Shown one piece after another: positions 4,323 through 20,876 of a stretch of DNA of 35,372 bases. The notes beneath the pieces are model-generated. The model worked only from the letters and a program-made list of their open reading frames with translations. It made no database searches and was not told where the DNA came from. Every line of letters begins with the position of its first letter. The first letter of the stretch is position 1. The stretch is from Nitrospirota bacterium (lineage in GTDB: Bacteria > Nitrospinota > Nitrospinia > SZUA-224), in NCBI GenBank assembly GCA_003229375.1, contig QIDP01000163.1:1-35372 (forward strand), read 5' to 3'. The position numbers and the translations under genes were made by a program.

Positions 4323-7300
4323 TTACCAATCGCAGGCCAGCGGACCGCCATATGCGCCCATATCATTCCTTGCTGTGTCATGCGATGGGGGGAAACACAC
4401 GTCATCGTAGATCGGATCGAGATTACCAGCATCTATGGCCGAGGAACCAATTGCCAACTCTAAATCGCTGGCCTCATACCCTGTCCCAACGAATGCTGGA
4501 TGAAGGTTAATATTCCCTTCACCTTCGTAGCCGCCTTGGACATCGGAATAGGTGATTGTGGGTGTGCCGCCTACCTGTGTTCCATCGGCGTTATTGAAGT
4601 AGATGATGGAGTTCAAAATGTCTAACGTACCGCCAACAACGTGAACGCCAGTGGCATCAAAGTTTCGGGAGATAGTGCTATTGATGACTGTCACCAAGCC
4701 ACCGTTCACATAGAGTCCACTGCCATTCTTTGGACCAACACAACCGCGCGTGGTCATAGTGTTACCCGAAAGTACAACATTCGTAAGTGTGACCGTGCCA
4801 CTGTTCACAAAAACACCTGCACCATAACTTCTAGAATACATACCAGAGAAGCAATAATCATCGCTGTTTGCATCCGTATGATTTTCACGAATATTGCTGT
4901 TTTCGACTGTAACATTGCCAGTACCACTGATATATATCGCCCCTCCGCGGGCGGTAGTATTGCAACCATCCCACCTACCATAGCACTTTGAATTGCTACG
5001 ATTGCCTATGAATTGGCCGTTTTTAATAATTGCATCTCCTGCTGCAAGGTACAGGGCACCTCCTACGTAATTGCCGTTGGCCTGTGAAGGATTTGCGGTG
5101 TTGTTTTCAAAGATGCTGTCAATTAATGAAAGAGTTTGCTCAGTGCTTAAAACTGCATTTATTCCTCCACCGTGTCCTGGAGATGTATTGTTTCTTATTG
5201 TGCAGTTGTTGATATCAGGGGTGCTCTCGATAAGAGTGATTCCACTATCATCCGAGTACTCTATGATAGCATGAGTGAATTCCGAACCGGATGGCGTATT
5301 CTGAAACTTTATTCCTTTCCACCGCTGATTAGTAGGTTCTGTTGGTTTTTTGGAAGAAAACAGAATGGGATCTTCTTCTGTGCCAATAGCCGTAATCGTT
5401 GACAATACCTCAATTTCGTATGGTCCGTCCACCAAAACTTCCACCCCAGGTTCTATTGTCAGAAGGCTTACCTGAATATCTCCTGTTACGCAGTAGGGAG
5501 AGCCGTCAACTGTCCATGTTTGGCCGGCCACTAGACCAGAGTCAACCGTTGTTGTGCATGATACGTCGATTGCTGTAAAGCTCCAGGGATAATCGTCCTC
5601 AAGCGGATTGTGCGCGAGGTCGGTTGCGCCGGTGGTTATTGTGGCGGTGTATTCGTGTGCAATAGTGAGATCGTCATCCGGGTCAAAGATGGCGGTGTTT
5701 GAGTTGCTATCGTATGAAACGGTACCATTAACGCTGGTGGACGCAGTAACGTCATAAAGCGTAAACGTATCCGTAGTTATAGTAGATGCGACCATCGGTT
5801 CGCTGAACGTGGCGGCAATGTTTGTATCCAGCGCAATGTCATCGTCGCCGTTCATTGGAAACGTAAGATCAACGGTGGGCGGTGTTATATCTTCTACGCA
5901 GTCGACTTTTACATTGGTAACATCTGCGCTGGTAATATCTCCGCCGCCGTTAGCAGTGACACTGCACGTCTGAGCAACCGGATGGGTTAAAACCGTAACG
6001 TTGTAAGACGATCCGTCGGCAAGCTCAGTTGCGAAGGTAAATTCTTCTGCCGTAACGTCAAGATCGTCACCTCCGTTATTCTGCAATGTTACGGTGCCGG
6101 TAAGTCCGCTGACCGTACCGCCGACACCGTAAGTGAATTCGGAGCAGAAAACCAGTACGCCTGTTACATTTGCCCCAGGGATCTTGCCCTTGCCGTTTAC
6201 GACCGTGCATGTCTGGTTGGCGGGCTGGGTTGCAACAGTAACGTTGTAGATCGCGCCGCTATGAAACACCGTGGAGAAGGTAAATGCTCCATCCGCCGTA
6301 ATATCAAGGTCGTCGCCGTCATTGAGCCGCAATACCACCGTGCCGTTAAGGCCGCTTACCGTGCCGCCGACAGTATAAGTTAAGATGTCGCCTCCGTGGC
6401 AGACGTAATTTGTGCTATCAACTTCTTCGGGGTTGAGTCCTCTGTCACGGTCATCGTCCAGTCCGACCTCAATCTTTATGCCGCCATCTGCGCAGTTGAG
6501 CCCGGCTGGCTCTTTGTTTATTGATATTAAACTTGTCAGGCCATCTGCATCACCACCTGCGCCGTTACAGACATAGGCGGTATCAGAAACTTCATTAGGA
6601 TCAGAATCGAGTACTCCATTGGCGTTATCGTCAACGCCAACCTCAATCTTTTTGCCGCCATTTGGGCAATTGTCTCCCGGACCTTCATCTGTTATGGAAA
6701 TGAGAGAAGTCAGGCCGTCCTGACCATCTTGACCGTCCTCGCCATTACAGACATACCAGGTATCATCAACTTCCTCTGGGTCGAGGACTCCGTCGTCGTT
6801 ATTATCAATACCGACTTCGACCTTTTTACCGCCATTGGTGCAGCTTTCGCCAGCATCGCTTACTGAGATAAGAGTGGCAGGTGCGTCATTACCATCACAG
6901 ACATATGCGGTATCATCAATTTCTTCGGGATCGAGTATTCCGTCGCCGTCATGGTCCAGCCCCACATCAACCTTTATGCCGCCATTGGGGCAATTGTCCC
7001 CGGAAGCCTCGTCGGTTATCGAAATTAAAGTCGTTAAACCATCTGTACCGTCCGCTCCGTCTTGACCGTCTTGTCCACCCTGACCATCCTGTCCGTCTAT
7101 TCCATCTTCGCCATTACAGACGTAATGGGTTTCATCAACCTCATCAGAGCCAAGCTCGCCGTCGCCGTCATTGTCAACGCCAACCTCAATCTTTTTACCG
7201 CCATCGGCGCAGTTGTCTCCTGGATCTTCATCGGTTATGGAGATTAAAGTTATCAGTCCTCCGTCTACTCCGTCCTCGCCGTTACAGACAACCTGGGTTT

Positions 7301-7547
7301 CATCCACCTCGTCCAGATCAAGTACCCCATTGCCGTTATCATCTATACCCGTATCGATTGATATGCCTCCATTGGGGCACTCATCACCCGCCTCGATTGG
7401 CGAAGCGTTCACTGCTACAGAGGGATTTCTATCAGCCTGATCCCCACCACCACCGCCCCCATCATCACTAGCACATCCAATCATCAATCCTGCTCCGAGG
7501 CATAAGGTCAACGCCATAATAAATGAAAACCGTGCTATCTTTTTCAT
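4323..7547 (-). CDS. Modular calcium-loop and beta-helix surface lipoprotein
   Basis: 1074 aa from the ATG at 7547 (GGAAAGAG upstream); the longer frame to 7628 lacks a signal peptide at its start. Lipobox LMIGC gives Cys25, then a Gly-rich linker. About residues 30-385 hold six repeats of about 50 aa, each with C-x-x-GG, an EF-hand-like loop (for example DNDGDGELGSDE) and a closing YVCNG. This is the pattern I associate with DUF7151. Two linkers are collagen-like G-x-y runs. Residues about 386-553 contain two copies of a VGGTVSGL...domain, about 554-660 a Big_5/SbsA-type Ig-like domain (TPPTVDLTFPMNG), and about 662-1074 a right-handed parallel beta-helix ending in SSAIDAGN...DMGAYGG, as in choice-of-anchor Q proteins. 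It is probably a surface adhesin or polysaccharide-binding protein. A dyad-flanked promoter at 7801-7830 suggests control by the adjacent XRE regulator. Confidence 0.85.
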   Translation of the reverse strand: MKKIARFSFIMALTLCLGAGLMIGCASDDGGGGGGDQADRNPSVAVNASPIEAGDECPNGGISIDTGIDDNGNGVLDLDEVDETQVVCNGEDGVDGGLITLISITDEDPGDNCADGGKKIEVGVDNDGDGELGSDEVDETHYVCNGEDGIDGQDGQGGQDGQDGADGTDGLTTLISITDEASGDNCPNGGIKVDVGLDHDGDGILDPEEIDDTAYVCDGNDAPATLISVSDAGESCTNGGKKVEVGIDNNDDGVLDPEEVDDTWYVCNGEDGQDGQDGLTSLISITDEGPGDNCPNGGKKIEVGVDDNANGVLDSDPNEVSDTAYVCNGAGGDADGLTSLISINKEPAGLNCADGGIKIEVGLDDDRDRGLNPEEVDSTNYVCHGGDILTYTVGGTVSGLNGTVVLRLNDGDDLDITADGAFTFSTVFHSGAIYNVTVATQPANQTCTVVNGKGKIPGANVTGVLVFCSEFTYGVGGTVSGLTGTVTLQNNGGDDLDVTAEEFTFATELADGSSYNVTVLTHPVAQTCSVTANGGGDITSADVTNVKVDCVEDITPPTVDLTFPMNGDDDIALDTNIAATFSEPMVASTITTDTFTLYDVTASTSVNGTVSYDSNSNTAIFDPDDDLTIAHEYTATITTGATDLAHNPLEDDYPWSFTAIDVSCTTTVDSGLVAGQTWTVDGSPYCVTGDIQVSLLTIEPGVEVLVDGPYEIEVLSTITAIGTEEDPILFSSKKPTEPTNQRWKGIKFQNTPSGSEFTHAIIEYSDDSGITLIESTPDINNCTIRNNTSPGHGGGINAVLSTEQTLSLIDSIFENNTANPSQANGNYVGGALYLAAGDAIIKNGQFIGNRSNSKCYGRWDGCNTTARGGAIYISGTGNVTVENSNIRENHTDANSDDYCFSGMYSRSYGAGVFVNSGTVTLTNVVLSGNTMTTRGCVGPKNGSGLYVNGGLVTVINSTISRNFDATGVHVVGGTLDILNSIIYFNNADGTQVGGTPTITYSDVQGGYEGEGNINLHPAFVGTGYEASDLELAIGSSAIDAGNLDPIYDDVCFPPSHDTARNDMGAYGGPLACDW

Positions 7548-7657
7548 ATCTCTTTCCACCCTTTCTTTATATAAATTCATTGCCTTCGGCGAGGCAAGTT
7601 TTTTAACCTCAACCATCATAAATCCCATTAACCGTAATTTTTTTTATATTCTTCTTA

Positions 7658-7887: not shown

Positions 7888-8331
7888 ATGAAAAGAAATA
7901 ATATAGTTGGTGAAAATCTTAGCAAAATAAGGACAAGAAAGGGGCTTACACAGGAAGAAGTTGCTCTTAGAAGTGGCTTAACACAGGGTTATATCAATCA
8001 GCTTGAGAGCGGTAAAAGAATGTTTACACAAAAATCCCTTGAGCAGATAGCAGAGGCATTGAATGTCCCACTCATTGATTTCTTTAAGAAAATGGAGAAA
8101 AAGACTGAGGGGGTTTGTGAAGATGTATCTAAATATAAGAGAAGAGAGTCTCCTTCTAAAAAAGAAATACTTGCCCTCTTAAACGAGCTCCCTCCCCAAC
8201 TCAGAGAGCATTATTTTACCCTCTTGAAGCTCGAAAAGGAGCTATGGAAAAAAAGGAGCTATGGAAAAGGTAATTACAGAGGTAGGCAAGTTTTTTTCAA
8301 AAAAGGGAGGAGTCCCAACCATCCTGCTTAG
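7888..8331 (+). CDS. XRE-family (HTH_3) transcriptional regulator
   Basis: 147 aa. Residues about 8-66 form a helix-turn-helix of the HTH_XRE/Cro-C1 type: LSKIRTRKGLTQEEVALRSG, then LTQGYINQLESGKR and SLEQIAEALNVPLIDFF. The next part, to about residue 120, is a Lys/Glu-rich helical tail (ILALLNELPPQLREHYF). The C-terminus is abnormal. A perfect 17-bp tandem duplication (8234-8267) shifts the frame after residue 121. Without it the protein would stop at 122 aa (ending LEKELWKR); with it, 25 new and basic residues are added. The gene is divergent from the large lipoprotein gene, with operator-like dyads between, so it probably controls that gene and itself. Confidence 0.85.
   Translation: MKRNNIVGENLSKIRTRKGLTQEEVALRSGLTQGYINQLESGKRMFTQKSLEQIAEALNVPLIDFFKKMEKKTEGVCEDVSKYKRRESPSKKEILALLNELPPQLREHYFTLLKLEKELWKKRSYGKGNYRGRQVFFKKGRSPNHPA
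8234..8267. repeat. 17-bp perfect tandem duplication inside the XRE gene
   Basis: The unit AAAAGGAGCTATGGAAA occurs at 8234-8250 and again at 8251-8267 with no differences. Because 17 is not a multiple of three, it changes the reading frame and bypasses a TAA at 8271-8273. Confidence 0.95.
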
Positions 8332-8394: not shown

Positions 8395-9612
8395 TTATGC
8401 TCCTTCTGCGTATTTATGAAGTTTGACCTCAACCTTGTCCTCGAGCTTTGAGTAGAAATCCTGCAATATCGCAAGCACTTCAGGCCGGCTGAAATGATCA
8501 GGGACTTCTGCCCCTTCAGAGAGCATCTTCCTTAACATTGTTCCGCTTAGTATCAACCTGTCATCTTTACCATGCGGGCATGTCTTCATAGAGGCCATGC
8601 CATCGCATTTAAAGCAATAAAATGTCCAGTCAATCTTCAATGGCTGGAGTTCAAGTGAACCTTTTGGAATTTCATTAAATATGTGATGGGCATCAAAAGG
8701 ACCATAGTACTCCCCAACACCGGCATGATCACGTCCTACAAGGAGATGACTGCACCCGAAGTTCTGCCTGAAGACAGCATGGAGGAGTGCCTCACGTGGT
8801 CCTGCATAGCGCATCTCCATAGGATAACCACCCTGGATACATGTATCTTTTACAAAATATTTTTCTACCAGTACATCAATGGCCTGTGTTCTTACGTCAG
8901 CAGGTATATCCCCTGGCTTTAACTTTCCTACTAACTGGTGGATAAACACACCATCGCAGATCTCAATAGCTATCTTTGCCAGGTATTCGTGTGATCTATG
9001 CATAGGGTTTCTCAACTGCAATGCTGCTATTGTACTCCATCCCTTTTCCTCAAACATCTTTCTGCTCTCTGCCGGACGCATATACAGACCTTTGAACTGC
9101 CCGGGATAATAGCTCTCACTGAATACCTTTACAGGCCCGGCAATGTTTATATCTCCCTGTGACATTACCTTTGCAACACCAGGATGCTCTGTGTCATCTG
9201 TTTTAAAAACCTGTTTGCACTCGTGGACCTTATCAATGGTATATTTCTCTTTGACCGTTATACTTCCCATTAGCTCTCCGGTCTCTTCATCAATGAGGGC
9301 TGCTTCTGATCCCTCTTTTAAGCTGTCTGCCTGTTCTTTTGTTGTTGAAAGGGTTATAGGTATTGGCCAGAAGAGACGACCGTTGCTCATTAAATAGTCA
9401 TCGCAAACACCCTTCCAGTCCTCTTTTCCCATAAATCCATCAAGAGGTGTAAATGCCCCGATACCCAGCATAATCAGATCTGATGTTTCTCTCGAAGACA
9501 TCTTGATCCGGGGCAATCCTTTAGCCTTTTCTTTCTCTTTATTAAGCTCTTCACCACTAAGCAATAAAGGCCTTAACTCTCCACCACCATGGGGGGGAAC
9601 TAATCTTGACAT
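8395..9612 (-). CDS. sat: Sulfate adenylyltransferase (dissimilatory ATP sulfurylase)
   Basis: 405 aa, a normal length for homo-oligomeric bacterial Sat, with AAAGGAGGA before the ATG. It catalyses ATP + sulfate to APS + PPi, reversibly. Visible signatures are [11 protein letters not shown] (199-209, the nucleotide-binding QxRNPxHxxHE motif), GRDHAGVG (293-300), and a Cys/His cluster at 333-347 (CFKC...CPH), a zinc site typical of dissimilatory Sat. There is no APS-kinase domain. It is the last gene of the apr-qmo-hppA-adk-sat run, 24 bases after adk, so it is probably co-transcribed. Codons 61-70 are the source of the displaced copy at 592-622. Confidence 0.97.
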
Positions 9613-9636
9613 ATCTATTCCTCCTTTATAAATTGT

Positions 9637-10284
9637 TTATTTACTATCCAGCACTTTGCTTATATCAGCAAAGACATCATTGACAGTACCCATACCATCA
9701 ATATTACAGAGCAGATCCTTTTCTGCATAATACTTCTTTAAGGGTTCTGTCTGATCTTCATATACCTTTAAACGATCGCGATGCACCTGCTCTGTGTCAT
9801 CAGAGCGGCCTATTATCTTTCCCTCGCAGTCATCGCATTTACCCTCAACCTTTGGGGGGCTAAAGAATACGTTATAATCCTTTCCGCATTTTTCACAGGA
9901 ACGACGACCTGACAGACGCTTTAAAATAATATCCCTGTCTGCTTCAAGACTGACAACATAATCTATCTTAAGATTCTTCTCTTCCATGACCTTATCAAGG
10001 GTAATGGCCTGAGAGATATTCCGGGGAAAACCATCGAGCATAACCCCTTTTGCATCCCCCACATTCCCTATAGCGTTAACAACGATTCCTACAACAATAT
10101 CATCCGAGACAAGTTCCCCTTTATCCATGGCCTCTTTTGCCTTGAGACCGAGTTCGGTCTGATTTTTAACCTCTGCCCTCAGGGCCTCCCCTGTTGAAAG
10201 ATGAAGAAGATTATATTTATCTCTTAATCTGTTTGCCTGTGTACCTTTACCGACCCCCGGGGGGCCAAAAAGAATGATGTTCAT
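9637..10284 (-). CDS. adk: Adenylate kinase, zinc LID type
   Basis: 215 aa. P-loop GPPGVGKGT (7-15), AMP-binding DGFPRN (84-89), and a long LID domain with four cysteines (C130, C133, C150, C153) that would bind zinc, as in many thermophilic and anaerobic bacteria. It converts ATP + AMP to 2 ADP in the cytoplasm. Its place between hppA and sat makes sense because APS reductase releases AMP, which must be rephosphorylated. Whether this is the cell's only adk cannot be told here; adk is usually in a ribosomal-protein operon with secY, so this position is unusual. Confidence 0.96.
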   Translation of the reverse strand: MNIILFGPPGVGKGTQANRLRDKYNLLHLSTGEALRAEVKNQTELGLKAKEAMDKGELVSDDIVVGIVVNAIGNVGDAKGVMLDGFPRNISQAITLDKVMEEKNLKIDYVVSLEADRDIILKRLSGRRSCEKCGKDYNVFFSPPKVEGKCDDCEGKIIGRSDDTEQVHRDRLKVYEDQTEPLKKYYAEKDLLCNIDGMGTVNDVFADISKVLDSK

Positions 10285-10331
10285 ATTCTGTCCTTTCTTT
10301 CTTATTTACACCCTTAAACTACTGTATATTT

Positions 10332-10457
10332 AAATCCTAAATCCTAAATCCTAATATCTAAAATTCTAAACAAATTATATAGCGAATAGTATTTTAGTCT
10401 TTGATATTTTGGTTTTACTATATACCACCAAATACTAACGACTAAATACTAACGACT
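10332..10457. repeat. Short tandem repeats in the hppA-adk spacer
   Basis: Three 7-base units AAATCCT (10332-10352) and two 14-base units AAATACTAACGACT (10430-10457) lie in an AT-rich 171-base spacer. The second set runs into the hppA stop codon (10456-10458). No hairpin terminator is visible, so readthrough from hppA into adk and sat is possible but not assured. Confidence 0.75.
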
Positions 10458-12534
10458 AAATAAACAGCGGTGCAAGAACCAGTGCGACTACACTCATAAG
10501 CTTGATCAAAATATTGAGTGAGGGTCCTGCTGTATCCTTGAAAGGATCACCCACTGTATCTCCCACTACTGCTGCCCTGTGCGGATCACTCCCTTTTCCA
10601 CCTAAGGCGCCGGCTTCGATATGCTTTTTGGCATTGTCCCATGCACCTCCGGCATTTGACATAAAGATGGCCATAAGAACACCGCATACAGTAACACCGG
10701 CCAAAACTCCTCCGAGCATCTCTTTATCGACGAATCCGAAAACAACCGGTGTCACAATTGCGAGAAGTCCGGGCGCGACCATCTTTTTGATTGCTGCAGC
10801 AGTTGAGATGTCAACGCACCTTGCATAGTCAGGTCTTCCAGTCCCCTTAAGAATTCCCGGTATTTCACGAAACTGCCTTCTTACCTCTTCTATCATATCA
10901 AAGGCCGCCTCACCTACTGCCTTCATGGCAAAAGAAGAGAAGAGAAACGGCATCATCCCTCCAATAAGAAGACCCGCCATAACCATTGGTTTGCTGACAT
11001 CTATAGACTCAATCCCTGCGGTCTGCATAAAGGCCGAGAAGAGGGCAAGCGCGGTCAGGGCGGCTGACCCTATTGCGAACCCTTTTCCAATTGCCGCTGT
11101 TGTATTACCAACTGCATCAAGTTTATCTGTCCGTTTGCGTACCTTAGATTCAAGTCCGGCCATCTCTGCGCATCCACCTGCATTATCTGCAATTGGACCA
11201 TATGCATCTACAGCAAGCTGTATGCCAGTGGTAGCCAGCATGCCAACGGCGGCAATGGCAATACCGTAAAGTCCTGCATACTTATGGGCAACAACTATTG
11301 CAATTGCAAGGACGATCAAGGGCGCTGCTGTGCTTTGCATACCATTGGCCAACCCTGCTATAATATTTGTAGCAGGACCGGTCTTTGAGGCCTCGGCAAT
11401 TTTATGTACCGGTGTCTTTGATTCTGCTGTATAGTACTCTGCCAGCAAGCCAATGGCAACACCAGCAATTAATCCGGTAACTGTAGCCATAAAGATCCCT
11501 GTTCCATCATATGTTATCCCGCCTAAGACAAATGGATCCGGAACTATCTTTTTAATTATGGGATAGGAAGCAATTAGCATGAGGATCGCTGCTCCAAATG
11601 TCCCTATATTAAGTGCTGTCTGTGGGTTGCCCCCCTCTTTGGTTCTTACAAAGAATGTACCTATTATTGAAAAGAGTATACCTACACCTGCAAGAACAAG
11701 GGGTAGTATTACCAGATTTATCCCCGCACCTACAGCCATTGCGCCGAGTACCATGGACCCCACAATCGAGCCCACATAAGACTCAAAGAGATCAGCACCC
11801 ATGCCTGCAACATCCCCCACATTATCCCCCACATTATCTGCAATGGTGGCCGGATTTCTTGGGTCATCTTCCGGGATCCCTGCCTCTATCTTTCCGACAA
11901 GGTCAGCGCCTACATCTGCAGCCTTGGTATAAATACCCCCGCCTACCCTTGCAAAGAGGGCAATGGATGAAGCGCCTAAAGAAAAACCGCTCAAGATCGG
12001 AAGAACTAATCCCCTTAATATACTGACAGTTTCTCCAAAAAGGGTCGTATAAATAAGAAATAAAGAGGTTAGTCCTAATACACCCAGCCCAACAACAGAC
12101 ATCCCCATAACTGCCCCGCCATTAAATGCTACTCCCAGGGCCTGGTTTAATCCCTTTCGTGCTGCATTAGTGGTTCTGTAATTTGCAGCAGTGGCTACCC
12201 GCATGCCAAAAAAGCCGGCTAATCCTGAACAGACTGCCCCAACTACAAAAGAGAGTGCGGTCAGGACCAGGAATTTCTTAAGATGCGTCGGTGCCAGAGG
12301 GTTTTCGATTATGATATTAGCAATAACCAGTAATATGGCGACAATAATAACAAATATACCTAAGACCTTGTATTCTCTCGCAAGGAATGCCATGGCACCC
12401 TCACGAACCGCCTTTCCAATCTCAATCATCTTTTCTGTTCCCTCTTCCTGTCTGTTGACCCAATTGGATCGCCATAGGGCAAACAGAAGAGCCAAAATAC
12501 TGCAAAATATGACAAAAACAAGATAACCGGTCAT
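10456..12534 (-). CDS. hppA: Membrane-bound ion-pumping pyrophosphatase
   Basis: 692 aa with about 16 hydrophobic helices, the normal size for bacterial membrane PPases. It hydrolyses PPi in the cytoplasm and pumps H+ or Na+ outward. Substrate motifs are intact: [11 protein letters not shown] (207-217), [16 protein letters not shown] (233-248), [12 protein letters not shown] (443-454) and [15 protein letters not shown] near the C-terminus. The segment [10 protein letters not shown] (476-485) has Ala at position 480, where potassium-independent enzymes have Lys, so this is the potassium-dependent class. Glu251 in DLFESY sits where the Thermotoga sodium pump has its gate Glu. Placed with sat, it would remove PPi and conserve its energy. 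Confidence 0.96.
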
Positions 12535-12574
12535 TTTTTTCCTCCTATTAATTAAAAGTTTACCTTCTTTCCCA

Positions 12575-13687
12575 TTAGTGCTCCCTCCCCGAGTACTTTG
12601 AGTACACCATTGCCACAGTTCTATAAAGCAGGTGGCCCAGTTTAGAATAGGGGAGATAAGCTATAATATAGAAAACCGCTACCAGGTGAATGAAATAGAT
12701 TGGATAAGCCAGAAAGGCAATCCCTGCCAATCTTGTTAGCTCAGCTAGAAATCCTGTTATTACCAATGCAAATATCATCCCTATCAATGTCCAATCATAA
12801 GATGTAGTAGATGTTATATCCTTATTCTTGAGTCTGTTGAGGACGACCAGGGTGATACCAATAAAGAGCGCTATACCACTCACGTTTCCAAGTATCTTTA
12901 CAGGATGTATAAGAGAAAGAGGAGTTTCAACGTGCAAGAAATCTACCAATACAAGGACAATGTTGGTTGTAATAAATAATCCTACAAAACCATAAAATAC
13001 AAGGAGGTGAGCATTATATCTATCTTTGTTTACACCGCAATCTTTAAATTTATTATGCCCGAATATTTCAGTTGCGGTTGAAATAATGCTGGGGAAAAGC
13101 CCCATACTCGGCACCCAGAGATTGGAACTTTTATTCATGTCTTTCCAAAAGTTTAATACCCCTATGCCGGCTGATAGCAAGGCAAACATAGAGACAGCAA
13201 TAAAGAGGGCATCAACATAAAAAAGAGGGAAAAATTTTGAGAACACGATCTCCCCTTCCGGTATGTTGAGGTGTCCAATAGAGGCGAGCAAAATAATCAT
13301 GATAATTATTGGGACAGCTAAAAGATAAGGTAGATTTTTTGCATCACCCAGGAGCTTACCCATAAATTTCGGGAATGCGTACTTTGTGAAACTATATCTT
13401 CTCACAGCAGCCAGGACATCACCTGGCTTTGCCCCTCTTGGACAATGCAAGGAACAATCATTGCACTGATGACACAACCATATATCAGGATTACCTGCAA
13501 GCCTGTCCATTAACCCCCATTGAGCATATATCATCTCTTTCCTTGGAAACGGCCTGGTATCACCGGATAAAGGACATACTACCGAGCATGTTGCGCACTG
13601 AAAACACTTTTTTAGTGTCCCGGCCCCGGAACCGGTTAGTTCTTTGACAGCCTTTAAATCAGGTTCTACCATATATCTGTCTGACAT
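12575..13687 (-). CDS. qmoC: Quinone-interacting membrane-bound oxidoreductase, subunit C
   Basis: 370 aa. The N-terminal third is HdrC-like, with two 4Fe-4S motifs: C28, C31, C34, C38 and C72, C75, C78, C82. From about residue 118 it has about six transmembrane helices resembling the HdrE/NarI cytochrome b subunit, with several membrane His residues for haem. This HdrC-HdrE fusion is diagnostic of QmoC. It anchors the complex and exchanges electrons with menaquinone. GGAGATAT precedes the ATG at 13687. The gene lies 38 bases downstream of qmoB on the same strand. Confidence 0.95.
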
Positions 13688-13725
13688 ATATCATATCTCC
13701 TAAAAATCATATCAGTTCACAGTTA

Positions 13726-16023
13726 CTAAAAATCTTTAAATGGATTAGGACCTATCTCATCTATCTTTTCCAGAAACTTGTCAAAGATAGCCGGTATCTT
13801 ACTATATTCATCTATTGAGAATTGATGAATCTCGATCCTTTCAGCCTCAAGCTGGAGTTTGTTCAATGTATCCTGGACCTTTCCCAATCTAACCTCTGCC
13901 AATTCACTCCCCTTTATAAAATGGCACTGATAGTCATCACCATGTTTACATCCCATCATGATTAACCCATCTATACCCTTTGACATAGCATCAGCAATCC
14001 ACACCAGATTTGTTGAGCCAAGGCATCTGAGCGGAATAACCCTTATATTCGGATTATAAGTGAGACGTTTGATTCCAACCATATCGATTGCAGGATAGGC
14101 ATCATTCTCACATACCAGGGCTACAATCCTCGGCTTCTCCTCATCCTCTTCAGGAACATCTATAGCCTTAAGCATGGATGAGATTATATCGACACTATAG
14201 TTTTTAAAGGAAACTATCCTTTCCGGACATGCCCCCATACAGACCCCGCATCTTCTGCATCGGGTCGGGTTTGGCTTTGGAGTCCCTTTTTCATCTTCAT
14301 CCAATACACCAAAAGGACATTCTATGGTACATCGTTTACACTGGGTACACCTCTGCAGAAAGAATTCCGGATAGGTCTGATCTCCTGCCCTGGGATGAAC
14401 CGCCTTTCCCTGAGCCGTAAGTTCCATACATTGAATAGCCTTTAATGCTGCTCCTGTTGCATCATCAGCGCTGGCACCCCCATCCATAGGATGTTTCGCA
14501 CAACCCGCAGTATAGATACCCGTCCTGCGTGTCTCATAAGGAAAACAGAGAAAATGAGAGTCCGGGAACCCATACTGTAACTCAGGTATCTCCGGCCCCT
14601 GCCTGTATTGAAGATGGAGTATGTTAGGTACCTTATGAGACTCTATAATCTCCTCTTCTTTTTCAGTCTTGTCCGGGGCAGCTTGATCTGCTGCATCTTT
14701 TTCTGCCATCTCCTTTTTAAATGCCTCAAATTTCTCTTCAGATATCTTGGTATTCGGCTCCAGACCAACTGCCAGAACAACCATATCAGCCTTTAACTTG
14801 ATCTTTTCTCCCAGCAAGGTATCGTCAGCCTCAATAATCAAATTATTTCCAGCCTCTTCCTCTACCCCTGTAATCTCTCCTTTTGTGAAAAATATACCCT
14901 CATCTTCCTGTACCTTCTTGTAAAAGTTTTCATGCTGACCCGGAGATCGTATATCTTTATAAAGGATATATACCTCTGTATCGGGATCCTGCTCTCTGAG
15001 ATATTTTGCCTGTTTTAACGAAGTAAGACAACAAACCGCCGAGCAATATGGTAAATGATTTTCATCCCTTGAACCGGCACACTGAATAAATGCTATTTTC
15101 TTTGCTTCCTTTCCATCCGAGGGGCGTACGATCCTGCCCTTTAACGCCATCTCCTCTATCATAACGCTGGTTACAACGTTGGGGTATTTTCCAAATCCCA
15201 GGTGATCCACCTTTGCAGCATCATAGGGCCTCCATCCTGCGGCCAGGATCACCGAACCCATCCTCATGGTCTCGGAATTACCATTTTGTCTTATAGTGAC
15301 GTCAAACATCCCCGGGGCGCCGGCTATCTTCTCTATCTCTGCCGAGGTAAAGACCTTTATATTTTGATTCTCTTCAACCTCTTTAATCTTCGATTCAATA
15401 CCGGTCTCTTCCATGTCATGATAGGGAGGTCTCTTGGGAAACTGTTTGTAGAGCTTGGCCATAAACCCTCCCAGTTTTGGGGTCTTTTCAACTAAAACAA
15501 CCTGGTACCCGGCCTTTGCCGACTCAAGGGCTGAAGTCATCCCGGTAATTCCGCCTCCGACTACAAGGATAGACTTAGCCATCTCCTCCTTAAAAGGCTC
15601 GGGGAGCTCACTCTTTTGGGCCTTTACAATACCCATCCTTAAGTAATCTTCACCCATCATCTGAATATCTTCATCTACTTGAGCGGTCTCACCTTTTTCA
15701 GAACCCTCTCCATTTTTAGGCTTTTGGCACCATACAACCTGTTCCCTTAAATTGACCCTTTCTGATATTATTGATAAAGGATCAAAATAAAAGACATCAT
15801 AATTTACACGGGGCGAACAGGCAGCTATTATGACTGTATTTACGCCCTCTCCTTCTATATCCTTCTTAATAAGGTCAACCCCTTCTTCACCACACAAAAA
15901 TGAATGGGATTTACAAATCGGGACCTTATATTTCTTGGTGGCTACTGTTGATAGCTTATCTATATCAAGGGATTCTCCTATATCACAACCAGTGCAGATA
16001 TACACCCCAACCTTTTTGTCCAT
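13726..16023 (-). CDS. qmoB: Qmo subunit B, HdrA-like flavoprotein with MvhD domain
   Basis: 765 aa. Residues 1-135 are an HdrA-type N-terminal region (VYICTGCDIGESLD). An FAD-binding fold follows with VVGGGITG at 154-161 and a central CCLTSLKQAKYLREQ segment. Two 4Fe-4S motifs are at C559, C562, C565, C569 and C589, C592, C595, C599. The C-terminal domain (about 630-765, with C638, C667, C692 and C700) is MvhD-like, as in methanogen hydrogenase-heterodisulfide reductase complexes. An acidic/Ala-rich insert at about 430-460 is likely a linker. With QmoA it passes electrons between QmoC and APS reductase. It begins six bases after qmoA ends, indicating tight co-translation. Confidence 0.95.
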   Translation of the reverse strand: MDKKVGVYICTGCDIGESLDIDKLSTVATKKYKVPICKSHSFLCGEEGVDLIKKDIEGEGVNTVIIAACSPRVNYDVFYFDPLSIISERVNLREQVVWCQKPKNGEGSEKGETAQVDEDIQMMGEDYLRMGIVKAQKSELPEPFKEEMAKSILVVGGGITGMTSALESAKAGYQVVLVEKTPKLGGFMAKLYKQFPKRPPYHDMEETGIESKIKEVEENQNIKVFTSAEIEKIAGAPGMFDVTIRQNGNSETMRMGSVILAAGWRPYDAAKVDHLGFGKYPNVVTSVMIEEMALKGRIVRPSDGKEAKKIAFIQCAGSRDENHLPYCSAVCCLTSLKQAKYLREQDPDTEVYILYKDIRSPGQHENFYKKVQEDEGIFFTKGEITGVEEEAGNNLIIEADDTLLGEKIKLKADMVVLAVGLEPNTKISEEKFEAFKKEMAEKDAADQAAPDKTEKEEEIIESHKVPNILHLQYRQGPEIPELQYGFPDSHFLCFPYETRRTGIYTAGCAKHPMDGGASADDATGAALKAIQCMELTAQGKAVHPRAGDQTYPEFFLQRCTQCKRCTIECPFGVLDEDEKGTPKPNPTRCRRCGVCMGACPERIVSFKNYSVDIISSMLKAIDVPEEDEEKPRIVALVCENDAYPAIDMVGIKRLTYNPNIRVIPLRCLGSTNLVWIADAMSKGIDGLIMMGCKHGDDYQCHFIKGSELAEVRLGKVQDTLNKLQLEAERIEIHQFSIDEYSKIPAIFDKFLEKIDEIGPNPFKDF

Positions 16024-16029
16024 ATGGTC

Positions 16030-17283
16030 TTACCTCCTCACACATTGAATAGCCTTAAGGGCCATGCCAGTAGCATCTTGAATTGATGAAGCAACATTCA
16101 CGGGCTTCTTGGCTACTCCGGCAGCATAGATTCCTGCCTTTTGAAGATCGTTAAAGACAAATCCAAATTCATCATAAGTTATATCAGATGGGATCTTTGA
16201 ATCTGCAATTGAAGGAGCCATTCCAGTAGCCAGCACCACCATATTAACCTTTTCCTTGATCTTATTTCCTGAAATTGTATCTTCACCTTCAACAATCAAA
16301 TCATCTGTTGGTTCATACTCTGCAATCTTAGCAATCTTCCCTTTATGAAAGATGATATTTTCATCCTTTTGAACCTGTTGATAAAATGTCTCATACTTTC
16401 CAAGGGCACGCAGATCAATATAGAATATATAGACCTTGGAATCAGGATATTGCTCCCTCACATAAATCGCTTGTTTCAAAGAAGCCAGGCAACATACAGT
16501 TGAGCAGTAAGGCAAATAATTCTCATCTCTGGAACCGGCACATTGGACAAAGGCAATGCTCTCAATCTCTTTTCCGTCAGAGGGACGCACTATTTTGCCC
16601 TTTGTCGGTCCGTTAGAAGCAGCGAGTCTCTCCATCATAACATTCGTTATGACATTTGGCTGCTTATCATATTCAAAGTTTTCAATACTTGCTGCATCGA
16701 ACGGCTTCCAGCCTGTAGCATAAACTATAGAGCCTGCTTTTATATTTCTAGTCTCCGGCTTCATGTCGAGATCAATGGCCTTGTAATCACATACCTCAAC
16801 ACATTTGCCACATTCAGCCCCTTCACAAACATCAGAATCGATCACATATCTCAGAGGAAAGGCCATCTCATGAGGCAGGTAAATCGCCCTGGTTTTATCC
16901 ATTCCATAATTAAATTCATTTGATCTTTCCACAGGACACACATCAACGCACTTGTTACATGAGGTGCATTTCTCATTAACAAGACGGGGACTCAACTTTA
17001 CTGTTACATCATAATCCCCTGCCTGGCCGGATATGTTTTCTATTTCTGCCTGAGTAAGGATTTTAATATTATTATTTTGTTTAATCCGTTTGAAATTGAT
17101 CTCAAGCCCGCATGAAGGTGGACAGAGCTTAGGAAAGTACTTATTCATCTTAGCTACTCTTCCACCCAGATATGGGCTCTTCTCAAGGAGGATTACCTTA
17201 TAACCAACTTCTGCAGCTTCCACAGCAGTAGTTATTCCACTGATTCCCCCTCCAACAACCAAAATGCTTTTTTCTTCTGCCAT
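16030..17283 (-). CDS. qmoA: Qmo subunit A, HdrA-like flavoprotein
   Basis: 417 aa, as usual for QmoA. FAD motif VVGGGISG at about 9-16, an HdrA-type CPPSCG (54-59), and two 4Fe-4S motifs: C106, C109, C112, C116 and C153, C158, C161, C165. The segment FVQCAGSRDENYLPYCS is shared with HdrA and with QmoB downstream, consistent with an old duplication between the two subunits. It is a soluble subunit of the Qmo complex, bound to the inner face of the cytoplasmic membrane. It is the first gene of qmoABC and is separated from aprA by a 235-base spacer carrying a strong terminator, so its expression depends on readthrough or a separate promoter. Confidence 0.95.
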   Translation of the reverse strand: MAEEKSILVVGGGISGITTAVEAAEVGYKVILLEKSPYLGGRVAKMNKYFPKLCPPSCGLEINFKRIKQNNNIKILTQAEIENISGQAGDYDVTVKLSPRLVNEKCTSCNKCVDVCPVERSNEFNYGMDKTRAIYLPHEMAFPLRYVIDSDVCEGAECGKCVEVCDYKAIDLDMKPETRNIKAGSIVYATGWKPFDAASIENFEYDKQPNVITNVMMERLAASNGPTKGKIVRPSDGKEIESIAFVQCAGSRDENYLPYCSTVCCLASLKQAIYVREQYPDSKVYIFYIDLRALGKYETFYQQVQKDENIIFHKGKIAKIAEYEPTDDLIVEGEDTISGNKIKEKVNMVVLATGMAPSIADSKIPSDITYDEFGFVFNDLQKAGIYAAGVAKKPVNVASSIQDATGMALKAIQCVRR

Positions 17284-17410
17284 AAATCTCCCCCCAACTC
17301 AATTTAGTTACTTAGCTATATTAATAATTAAGCTCGCAAGACCAAAATGGACGGACTATTATGATAGCTTATGAATTCAAATTTTGTTTAGTCCTAAATA
17401 ATTTGTTCGA

Positions 17411-17475
17411 GGTTCCTGGAGTTTTTTTAGCCCCCAATCGTGTGATCATTAGGAGCTAAAAAAACTCCAGGCACC
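17411..17475. repeat. Long inverted repeat that includes the aprA terminator T-tract
   Basis: Arms 17411-17431 and 17455-17475 are complementary at 20 of 21 positions, the inner 17 perfectly (CCTGGAGTTTTTTTAGC with its complement), around a 23-base loop. On the minus strand the first arm contains the T-tract of the terminator at 17458-17492, so the transcribed U-run can be duplexed with a downstream A-run. The rest of the aprA-qmoA spacer (17284-17410) is AT-rich with no clear promoter. Confidence 0.85.
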
Positions 17476-17492
17476 GAGCTTTACGGTGCCTG
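17458..17492 (-). terminator. Rho-independent terminator after aprA
   Basis: On the minus strand, a 9-bp stem CAGGCACCG/CGGTGCCTG (17492-17484 with 17476-17468) and a 7-base loop are followed by GAGTTTTTTT. It lies 27 bases past the aprA stop. It should reduce transcription into qmoABC, and so into hppA, adk and sat, relative to aprBA. Confidence 0.85.
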
Positions 17493-17518
17493 AAGATTTA
17501 GAAGGCTTACTTCCACTC

Positions 17519-19438
17519 TTAGGCAGGTATTATCTGCTTGTATTCCTTTTTGAATACATCCCATTTACCTGTCTCTGGATCGTACTTTGAATTCACGAAG
17601 CACTTCCAGTTCTCGTCATCGATTAAGTCGAAGTCTGACCTATAGTAGAAGCCAGGATATCTGGATTCTTCCCTAAACATAATATGTCTGAGATGGGCTT
17701 CAACCGTCCAGATTCGATGATAATTCTCCCACGCCCTCATCAATTCATGGAGATCGCCTGCAGCCATCTTCTGTGAATCTTCTCTCAGCATCTCAAGAAG
17801 TTCCATCGCCCTATCCAACAGCTTTCCACTCGTGATATAATTGGTAGAACATCCACCGCCGTATTCATCCGTAATCTTTACAAGCCTCATTAATAACCCC
17901 TTTGGCTTGATATAATTAGGATTAATATCCAGAGCCGTGCTTAGGTCTTTAAACTCGTGAAAAAGCTTAACCGGTGCATAGATCTCATCTGCGAGTTCCT
18001 TAGCGCTGCTCTTCAGGCTAGGAGCAAAATCAGCATTGTCACGGATATATTTGGCCATAGACTTTGCAGCGATCCTGCCTTCTGCATGTGAACCGGATGA
18101 GAACTTGTGACCTGACGCACCAACACCATCACCAGCAGTGAAGAGACCGTTAACAGTGGTCATCCTGTTATATCCCCAACTCCACTCTGAAGGACCAATA
18201 TCTTCCGGACCGCTTACCCATATCCCGGAGCATCCTGAGTGTGAACCTAACAAGTAAGGCTCTGTTGGCATGAGCTCGGAATTTGTTTCCTCAGGGGCAA
18301 TACTCATACCTGCCCAGAGTCCGGCCTGGCCAACAGTCATATCCAGGAAGTCCTCCCATGCCTCGGCCTCCAGATGTCTCTTCTCCTTCTTGTCCTTACC
18401 TTCAAAGAGTTTCGCCATTCCATCAACAGTATTCATGTAGATAGGACCACGGCCACTTTTAATCTCATGAAGCATCAGGTGATTTCTAAGGCAGGTAGGA
18501 GTGACTGGCGCGCTTCCGTATGGTTCGTACTGCTTTAACATATCTTTATTTCTAACCATGTAATCCTCGCCAAGGGCATTTACTGCCTTGCACTTAAAGA
18601 GGAGGAACCATGCCCCAACAGGACCGTATCCATCCTTGAATCTCGCAGGTACAAAGCGATTTTCCATCATGGTCAATTCAGCGCCAACCTGCATGGCCAT
18701 GGTATGAGTTGAACCGGCATTCCATACAGGATACCAGGCCCTACCCATTCCTTCGCCCGTTGAACGAGGCCTGAATACGTTCACAGCGCCTCCACAGGCC
18801 ACCAGCATGGTCTTGCACTTGATTACATAAACCTTATTTTCCCTTGTGCTGAATCCAACAGCACCGGCTATTGTGTTAGGCTTATTTGCATCGAGAAGGA
18901 TCTTTACGATAAATACCCTCTCCATGATGTTATCCATACCCAAGGCAGCCTTAGCAGCCTCAGCCACGATAGGCTTGTAAGACTCACCATTAATCATTAT
19001 CTGCCATTTACCGGACCTGACAGGCTTCCCACCCTCAGCTAAGGGCTTATCTTCATCACCAGCTTGTTTCCAGACTGGCAGCCCCCATTCTTCAAAGAGA
19101 TGGACCGAGTCATCAACATGCCTGCCGACATCATAAATAAGGTCTTCCCTGACAATACCCATCAGGTCATTCCTAACCATCCTCACATAATCCTCTATTT
19201 TATTTTCTCCAAGGTATGTATTGATAGCGGAAAGCCCCTGAGCAACAGCGCCACTTCTCTCCATAGCGGCCTTGTCAACCAGAAGAATCTTTGCATTCGG
19301 AGCCCATTTTTTTACCTCAATAGCGGCTCCGCAGTTAGCCATACCTCCGCCGATAAACAGAATATCAACCTCACGCTCTTCAATTTCCGGATCTACTACC
19401 GCTGGAAGCTCACCTAACGGCTTATTTGGTAATGCCAT
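17519..19438 (-). CDS. aprA: Adenylylsulfate (APS) reductase, alpha subunit
   Basis: 639 aa, close to the usual length. It reduces APS to sulfite and AMP at FAD, or the reverse. The N-terminal FAD fold has DILFIGGGMANCGAAIE (about 25-41), and DKAAMERSGAVAQGLSAIN follows as in the succinate dehydrogenase/fumarate reductase flavoprotein superfamily. Further AprA-type segments are GGAVNVFRPRSTGEGMGRAW and SSGSHAEGRIAAKS. AAGGAGGA lies just upstream of the ATG. It follows aprB by 47 bases. No aprM is present, and electrons would come through QmoABC encoded next. The alpha and beta subunits form a cytoplasmic heterodimer. Confidence 0.97.
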   Translation of the reverse strand: MALPNKPLGELPAVVDPEIEEREVDILFIGGGMANCGAAIEVKKWAPNAKILLVDKAAMERSGAVAQGLSAINTYLGENKIEDYVRMVRNDLMGIVREDLIYDVGRHVDDSVHLFEEWGLPVWKQAGDEDKPLAEGGKPVRSGKWQIMINGESYKPIVAEAAKAALGMDNIMERVFIVKILLDANKPNTIAGAVGFSTRENKVYVIKCKTMLVACGGAVNVFRPRSTGEGMGRAWYPVWNAGSTHTMAMQVGAELTMMENRFVPARFKDGYGPVGAWFLLFKCKAVNALGEDYMVRNKDMLKQYEPYGSAPVTPTCLRNHLMLHEIKSGRGPIYMNTVDGMAKLFEGKDKKEKRHLEAEAWEDFLDMTVGQAGLWAGMSIAPEETNSELMPTEPYLLGSHSGCSGIWVSGPEDIGPSEWSWGYNRMTTVNGLFTAGDGVGASGHKFSSGSHAEGRIAAKSMAKYIRDNADFAPSLKSSAKELADEIYAPVKLFHEFKDLSTALDINPNYIKPKGLLMRLVKITDEYGGGCSTNYITSGKLLDRAMELLEMLREDSQKMAAGDLHELMRAWENYHRIWTVEAHLRHIMFREESRYPGFYYRSDFDLIDDENWKCFVNSKYDPETGKWDVFKKEYKQIIPA

Positions 19439-19485
19439 ATCATTTTCCTCCTTTACTCACTTTTTATGTTAGTTATGTTTATATG

Positions 19486-19905
19486 TTAAGGTGTAGGTAG
19501 AGTTTTACCCTTTTCTGAATAGAGGTTTTCGTTATCCAGGCCATCTCCGGCCACATCATTTTTCGCATCAATAGACCCCTCAGCCGTGGTCCGGATAGGG
19601 AACTTAAACCTTTTAAGTGTCCCGTTTCTGAATTTAATCGTCCACATAATGTCTTCTGTCCCTCTTAAGGGTATAATGCTGCCGCCCATGGGGACAAAGT
19701 CTGAATAAGCTCTAACCTCAACACCCTGACTGGGGCATATCTTTACGCAGGAATAACATTCCCAGCATGCATCAGGTTCCTGATTGTATGCCTTCATGGT
19801 CTCAACATTCAATACCATCAAATCATTAGGGCATACATACATACATGCGGTCTTATCCCCTCCCTTACAACCATCACATTTTTCATTAATCACAAAACTT
19901 GGCAT
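19486..19905 (-). CDS. aprB: APS reductase, beta subunit (ferredoxin-like)
   Basis: 139 aa from the ATG at 19905, which has AAAGGAGGT eight bases upstream; an in-frame ATG at 19944 has no such site. Two 4Fe-4S motifs are visible: C10, C13, C21, C25 (with the characteristic spacing C-DG-C-KGGDKTA-C-MYV-C) and C47, C50, C53, C57 (C-WE-C-YS-C-VKI-C). The C-terminal tail after about residue 75 wraps around AprA in known structures. It is the first gene of the cluster, with a 5' leader of about 300 bases from the promoter at 20211-20239. Confidence 0.97.
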   Translation of the reverse strand: MPSFVINEKCDGCKGGDKTACMYVCPNDLMVLNVETMKAYNQEPDACWECYSCVKICPSQGVEVRAYSDFVPMGGSIIPLRGTEDIMWTIKFRNGTLKRFKFPIRTTAEGSIDAKNDVAGDGLDNENLYSEKGKTLPTP

Positions 19906-20175
19906 ATAATAACCTCCTTTACAATATTTAATAGTCCTCCCCAAAAACCTCTATATTAACTCCCTTCCAAATCCATGATCCATCTTTTTAAAAAGGCTTT
20001 TTATCGGACTATCGATTTCCAAGACCCTCGAAAATTCCACCCTATTTTCATTAAATCTGTTAAACTTTTCCTCTTCTTATTCCACCTCCCTTCAATACTG
20101 TTCGTCTTTAACAGTAGAGAAACTGCACATTCTTTATTACTTTTTTAATCGATTTTTTTCTGACAGGCTATGTCC

Positions 20176-20273: not shown

Positions 20274-20876
20274 TTACATTTTACATCTCATCTCTTTTAT
20301 GATAGGAATGGATGTCCGTGCAGCATTTCCACGGTGGCTGATCTTATGTTTCATTTCAGGAGAGATCTCAGCCATGGTCTGATTAAGCTCAGGAATAAAG
20401 AAGATAGGATCATATCCAAAACCATTAGACCCTTTAGGGTCGCGGCTAATCATGCCTTCTACTATACCATCGGCAGTCTTTATCATGCCTGATGGTGTGG
20501 CAATGGCCACAACACAGCGAAAACGGGCTGTTCGTTTCTCCCATGGGACCTCTTTCAATTTGGACAACACTATTTCATATCTACGTACATGTTCATCTTT
20601 GCCGGTACCACCATATCGAGCTGAATAGACACCCGGTTCTCCTCCCAGTGCGTCTATCTCCAGGCCGGAATCATCAGCAAGTGTCAATAACCCGCCAGCC
20701 CCGGCAAAGGCCCTCGCCTTAAGCACAGCATTATCCTTGAAGGTCTTCCCTGTCTCCTCAGGCTCCATGGTTATCCCTTCTTCATCCAGAGATACTATCT
20801 TAACAGGCAGATCGTGAAATATCTCGCGGTATTCACGTACCTTACCGGGATTATGAGTGGCGATCAGTAATTTCAT
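20274..20876 (-). CDS. rdgB: XTP/dITP diphosphatase (RdgB/HAM1)
   Basis: 200 aa. It hydrolyses ITP, dITP and XTP to monophosphates and so cleans the nucleotide pool. Visible signatures are the N-terminal IATHNPGKVREY, LADDSGLEIDALGG with catalytic Asp residues, SARYGG, NGFGYDPIF and the C-terminal SHRGNAA. The ATG at 20876 follows a G-rich stretch (GGGCAGGGTAGC) that serves as ribosome-binding site. A perfect GC hairpin (20895-20915) lies about 20 bases upstream. It is oriented like the apr operon but separated from it by the apr promoter. Confidence 0.95.
   Translation of the reverse strand: MKLLIATHNPGKVREYREIFHDLPVKIVSLDEEGITMEPEETGKTFKDNAVLKARAFAGAGGLLTLADDSGLEIDALGGEPGVYSARYGGTGKDEHVRRYEIVLSKLKEVPWEKRTARFRCVVAIATPSGMIKTADGIVEGMISRDPKGSNGFGYDPIFFIPELNQTMAEISPEMKHKISHRGNAARTSIPIIKEMRCKM

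Follow-up and report, generated by a model that had tools for sequence, protein, structure and literature searches.

Why should the genes for an adenylate kinase and a membrane pyrophosphatase be found among those for sulfate activation and APS reduction? It is the release of PPi and, one step later, of AMP that makes sulfate activation cost two high-energy bonds. In the stretch of DNA analysed here (35,372 nucleotides, the window), the minus strand carries, from position 19908 to 8395, the genes aprB-aprA-qmoA-qmoB-qmoC-hppA-adk-sat, all eight of them intact. The gene set, strand and order given in a preliminary description of the window are borne out, with profile matches for the genes. The window is contig C13 of the draft genome of an uncultured bacterium, G000 (2.56 Mb, 203 contigs, 93% complete), and we have used two relatives of the same genus, G001 (58% complete) and G002 (83% complete), together with a comparison set of 80 fetched qmoC loci.

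The locus and its probable transcription units

The two subunits of the APS reductase are encoded by aprB (beta; 19486-19908, minus strand as for all the features of the locus; TIGR02060, 201.5 bits), starting at an ATG at 19908 with an in-frame TTG at 19944, and aprA (alpha; 17519-19438; TIGR02061, 996 bits). The next gene, qmoA (16030-17283), is HdrA-like and was identified by its position and its similarity to the qmoA of the fetched qmo loci; qmoB (13726-16023), HdrA-like with a VhuD-like end, was assigned by synteny and similarity to other qmo loci, and qmoC (12575-13687), coding for the membrane subunit, by its match to NF038018 (479.8 bits, cut-off 300). These are followed by hppA (10456-12534; TIGR01104, NF001955), a membrane pyrophosphatase of the K+-dependent class, adk (9637-10284; NF001380, 276.9 bits), an adenylate kinase of 215 aa with a four-cysteine lid, and sat (8395-9612; NF003166, 518 bits; TIGR00339), a dissimilatory-type ATP sulfurylase that has the Allochromatium Sat (4dnx) among its best matches with a solved structure. 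With sat, aprB, aprA, qmoA, qmoB and qmoC all intact and together, this is a locus of dissimilatory sulfate activation and APS reduction.

The intergenic gaps, from aprB to sat, are 47, 235, 6, 38, 40, 171 and 24 bp. The gap between aprA and qmoA contains a strong hairpin (17465-17495, minus strand) with a 12-bp stem, 8 G-C pairs and a T7 tail, a consensus match to an intrinsic terminator (putative) that makes a single transcript doubtful. The 171-bp spacer between hppA and adk (10285-10455, minus strand) is AT-rich, contains short direct repeats and is poorly conserved in G001; no terminator-like site was found in it. Spacer and hairpin together weaken the case for one transcript. The best promoter-like site upstream of aprB (TTGACA-17-TAATAT) lies at 20239-20211, but such sites are overall no commoner than in shuffled sequences. 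A single operon aprBA-qmoABC-hppA-adk-sat appears doubtful, and the locus is probably divided into two transcription units, aprBA and qmoABC-hppA-adk-sat.

Three neighbouring genes deserve mention. A gene on the strand of aprB and about 365 bp upstream of it (20274-20876, minus) was recognised by eye as that of an RdgB-like XTP/dITP pyrophosphatase, presumably a PPi-releasing enzyme given its family. The gene of a small XRE-type helix-turn-helix regulator (7888-8331, plus; also by eye) is convergent with sat and ends 63 bp from it, and further on there is a 1101-aa protein (4323-7628, minus) in which 'NGEDGxDG' blocks recur and whose start resembles that of a lipoprotein.

Direction of the pathway

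The enzymes of this locus could work in either direction, and indications come from the Dsr genes. Contig C23 of G000 carries dsrAB (TIGR02064, 577.6 bits), dsrC, dsrM, dsrK and a gene for a DsrL-like protein, with dsrE/F/H and tusA on the other strand. Directly after dsrB, in G000 as well as in G002, is a gene for an 88-aa DsrD-like protein. It had no match to the DsrD profile PF08679, and a search of the PDB gave chance matches only, but it aligns with a divergent Nitrospirota DsrD encoded at the same place (hhalign probability 96.8). The presence of dsrD together with dsrL-2, or without dsrL, has been associated with reduction (PMC10591310). The DsrA of G000 is 57-75% identical to those of Nitrospirota and others; a search of viral contigs for DsrA references found no match. 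The closest DsrA with a solved structure is that of the sulfate reducer Archaeoglobus (559 bits, versus 502 for the next), in a comparison made without an oxidative reference.

If the pathway were oxidative (reverse Dsr), AprBA and Sat would consume AMP and PPi and make ATP, Adk would supply AMP from two ADP, and HppA would draw on the ion gradient to make PPi. The DsrL-like oxidoreductase gene that follows dsrAB(D) and the adjoining genes for DsrE/F/H and TusA are found in sulfur oxidisers as well, and many Nitrospinota have been described as rDsr sulfur oxidisers (PMC10839748). The DsrD-like protein of both genomes and the proximity to the Archaeoglobus DsrA, with the composition of that comparison in mind, argue against this direction, which we consider unlikely. 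Judging from the sequences, the pathway probably runs reductively.

Divergent DsrD-like proteins that PF08679 misses were seen directly after dsrB in L260 (8320-8586, minus) and L265 (10656-10913, plus), and several Nitrospirota DsrD score only near the threshold of this profile. Calls of direction based on DsrD may therefore miss such genomes.

Copy number and position of adk and hppA

Searches of G000 found one adenylate kinase (PF00406) and one membrane pyrophosphatase (PF03030), which are those of the window; with no other adk or ppa gene counted, the copies at this locus are not extras. The soluble pyrophosphatases of family I (PF00719) and the domain of those of family II (PF02833) had no match in G000, G001 or G002, and G002 (83% complete) yielded neither hppA nor ppa nor ppaC. 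As the G000 assembly is a draft (203 contigs), a second adk or a ppa may have been missed. Each gene being single-copy in G000, an origin as extra copies dedicated to sulfate metabolism was discarded, and both, as the only copies found, must serve general metabolism too. The preliminary description had seen here a self-contained, energy-balanced module that saves PPi energy as an ion gradient. Self-containment holds in so far as the genes for the enzymes that would dispose of PPi (HppA) and AMP (Adk) lie beside those for its producers, but these enzymes are the only pyrophosphatase and adenylate kinase found rather than dedicated ones. The ion gradient agrees with HppA being a membrane pyrophosphatase and, as predicted from its sequence, a pump; an energy balance can be inferred, beyond what sequence evidence reaches.

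The former position of adk can be recognised in other genomes. In nine relatives from the class adk follows secY, with map next in six of them; in G000 and G002 there is no adk between secY and map, which lie 4 bp apart. In the window's genus adk has left its ribosomal-operon site. Its new surroundings vary within the genus: a short contig of G001 reads hppA-adk-sat, and G002 has qmoC-adk-sat, where qmoC and adk overlap by 4 bp, which suggests translational coupling. The adk-sat linkage is kept in the three species, and we estimate the chance that a sole adk lies next to sat, among some 2,400 genes, to be of the order of 1 in 1,000. Among the 59 relatives searched besides G000, qmoC scored above the curated cut-off only in G002, of the same genus, so that within the class the sulfate genes appear to be a trait of this genus.

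A similar displacement of adk is found in Nitrospirota. Directly after qmoC there is an hppA in 37 of the 80 loci of the comparison set, and 20 loci have the run adk-sat-aprB-aprA-qmoA-qmoB-qmoC (17 labelled Nitrospirota, 3 unlabelled bacteria), with hppA next in all except one of these 20. In 20 genomes carrying such loci secY and map are adjacent without adk; secY-adk is present in all eight of the other genomes checked (Deltaproteobacteria, Actinomycetota, Chloroflexota, Zixibacteria, Nitrospinota and one labelled Nitrospira sp.). The relocation in Nitrospirota may perhaps be unconnected with sulfate reduction. The absence of adk between secY and map provides a simple marker to find further lineages of this kind. 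The order without hppA and adk, which had been taken as the textbook one, is kept by the Deltaproteobacteria, Actinomycetota, Chloroflexota, Omnitrophota and Zixibacteria contigs of the comparison set but does not apply to Nitrospirota, where the same eight-gene set is common. The preliminary description had itself reckoned that an order common and already described in the lineage would speak against its proposal, and this is largely the case for the gene content, standard in Nitrospirota sulfate reducers, and not for the order, the HppA class or the lineage.

Adk and HppA are general enzymes, and the cluster of G002 lacks hppA and is ordered differently from that of G000, all of which would fit a neutral rearrangement in which both genes landed here by chance, without any special tie to sulfate metabolism. 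Such a rearrangement is hard to reconcile with the same association in Nitrospirota with a different class of HppA, with the linkage kept across the genus and with the lack of second copies elsewhere, and we regard it as quite improbable. The explanation that we favour, and consider probable, is that the locus is the sulfate activation and APS reduction site of a dissimilatory sulfur metaboliser into which the only adk and the only pyrophosphatase of the cell have been brought. In the reductive direction Sat would make APS and PPi, and HppA would hydrolyse the PPi and pump ions (Na+ or Na+/H+ being likelier than H+ alone), thereby pulling the Sat reaction, as proposed by Zecchin et al. (2018; PMC5812927), and conserving some of its energy. 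AprBA would be fed by QmoABC and release AMP, which Adk would convert with ATP to two ADP for re-phosphorylation. With adk and hppA located beside qmoC and sat, both would be expressed along with sulfate respiration, the process that probably yields more AMP and PPi than any other in such a cell, and general metabolism would still be served.

HppA class, ancestry and comparison with known loci

The K+ site reads GNTTAAIG in the window HppA and its G001 orthologue and GNTTKAVT (GNTTKAVTKG), of the K+-independent class, in all 32 full-length qmoC-adjacent HppAs compared; in the HppA tree the window protein and the qmoC-adjacent ones form separate clades. The window HppA has A12.46, G12.49 and E6.53, the latter placed through an alignment with the Vigna PPase, whose E6.57 is four residues further. 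A12.46/G12.49 with E6.53 characterise Na+ or dual Na+,H+ pumps, and K12.46 the K+-independent H+ pumps (PMC10897367). These residues are common to the K+-dependent Na+ or Na+,H+ PPases of the Thermotoga maritima and Clostridium leptum type, and along these lines the window HppA is predicted to be a Na+ or Na+/H+ pump. It scores higher, however, against the Vigna H+ pump (627 bits) than against the T. maritima Na+ pump (548 bits), so that its ion specificity is a prediction and not settled. The GNTTAA type is shared by other members of the class, with which the window HppA groups in the tree, although on a long branch; hppA may be the lineage's own.

Other proteins of the locus also branch apart from those of Nitrospirota. 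The window Sat is nearest to Actinomycetota Sat, and AprA to that of Desulfobacterales/Myxococcota (73%). In the Adk tree the window protein is a branch of its own that belongs neither to the class clade nor to that of Nitrospirota, and AU tests did not reject forcing it either together with Nitrospirota Adk (p 0.18, 0.11) or into the class clade (p 0.08-0.14). A simple relocation of the native adk of the class does not appear supported. The least likely alternative is that the cluster was taken as a block from sulfate-reducing Nitrospirota and then permuted: the eight genes, the loss of adk from between secY and map and the unrejected grouping of the Adk proteins would agree with it, but Adk has its own branch, and as the source of hppA, sat and aprA such a transfer was discarded, HppA being of another class and clade and Sat and AprA being nearest to other groups.

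Two observations concern the Nitrospirota loci themselves. In the sat slot of their cluster the Sat proteins are, over the best segments, about 33%, 41-44% or 67-75% identical to the window Sat with the gene order unchanged (the groups contrasted were L046, L066, L068, L074, L110 and L069, L077, L097, L101, L102, L111 versus L050, L056, L058, L073, L100), and sat seems to have been swapped in place. Also, L072 (PNOF01000093.1), labelled Syntrophus, has a qmoC-hppA pair of the Nitrospirota type and groups among the Nitrospirota in the HppA tree; it is either a mislabelled bin or a transfer.

The window locus looks like a second, independent assembly of the arrangement known from Nitrospirota. 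More tentatively, at least two lineages could have independently moved their sole adk out of the ribosomal spc operon and put a membrane pyrophosphatase, of differing class, into the sulfate locus, the whole of AMP and PPi recycling being then expressed with sulfate respiration; in the window's genus the energy would be saved as a gradient of Na+ instead of H+. The sole adk and sole pyrophosphatase within a sulfate locus, a state apparently arrived at on two or more occasions and with different classes of pump, suggest a selection that matches supply to sulfate flux, and the energy yield of PPi (by H+ pumping, Na+ pumping or plain hydrolysis) becomes comparable between sulfate reducers.

In the open-licence literature we found no publication, which is weak evidence, that describes adk in an hppA-qmo-apr-sat run or with sat, aprBA or secY. 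The closest known system is that of sulfate-reducing Nitrospirota (Thermodesulfovibrionia; e.g. L050, L058, L074, L084 and L102), which has the same eight functions in one cluster and, like the window's genus, its sole adk inside it and none between secY and map. The pair adk-sat is upstream in that cluster (adk-sat-aprB-aprA-qmoA-qmoB-qmoC-hppA) and downstream in the window, HppA is of the K+-independent rather than the K+-dependent class, and the sat, aprA and adk of the window belong to other branches. Zecchin et al. (2018; PMC5812927) described Candidatus Sulfobium and related MAGs, in several of which the locus tag of hppA is next to those of qmoC, qmoB, qmoA, aprA, aprB and sat; adenylate kinase is unmentioned there, and the phylum label, gene order and HppA class differ from those of the window. 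The loci of Deltaproteobacteria, Actinomycetota/Aquicultor, Chloroflexota, Omnitrophota and Zixibacteria have the core aprBA and qmoABC in common with the window but, unlike it, no hppA or adk nearby, and in the genomes checked adk follows secY. What is known, then, is the eight-gene set of Nitrospirota; the window differs in gene order, HppA class and lineage.
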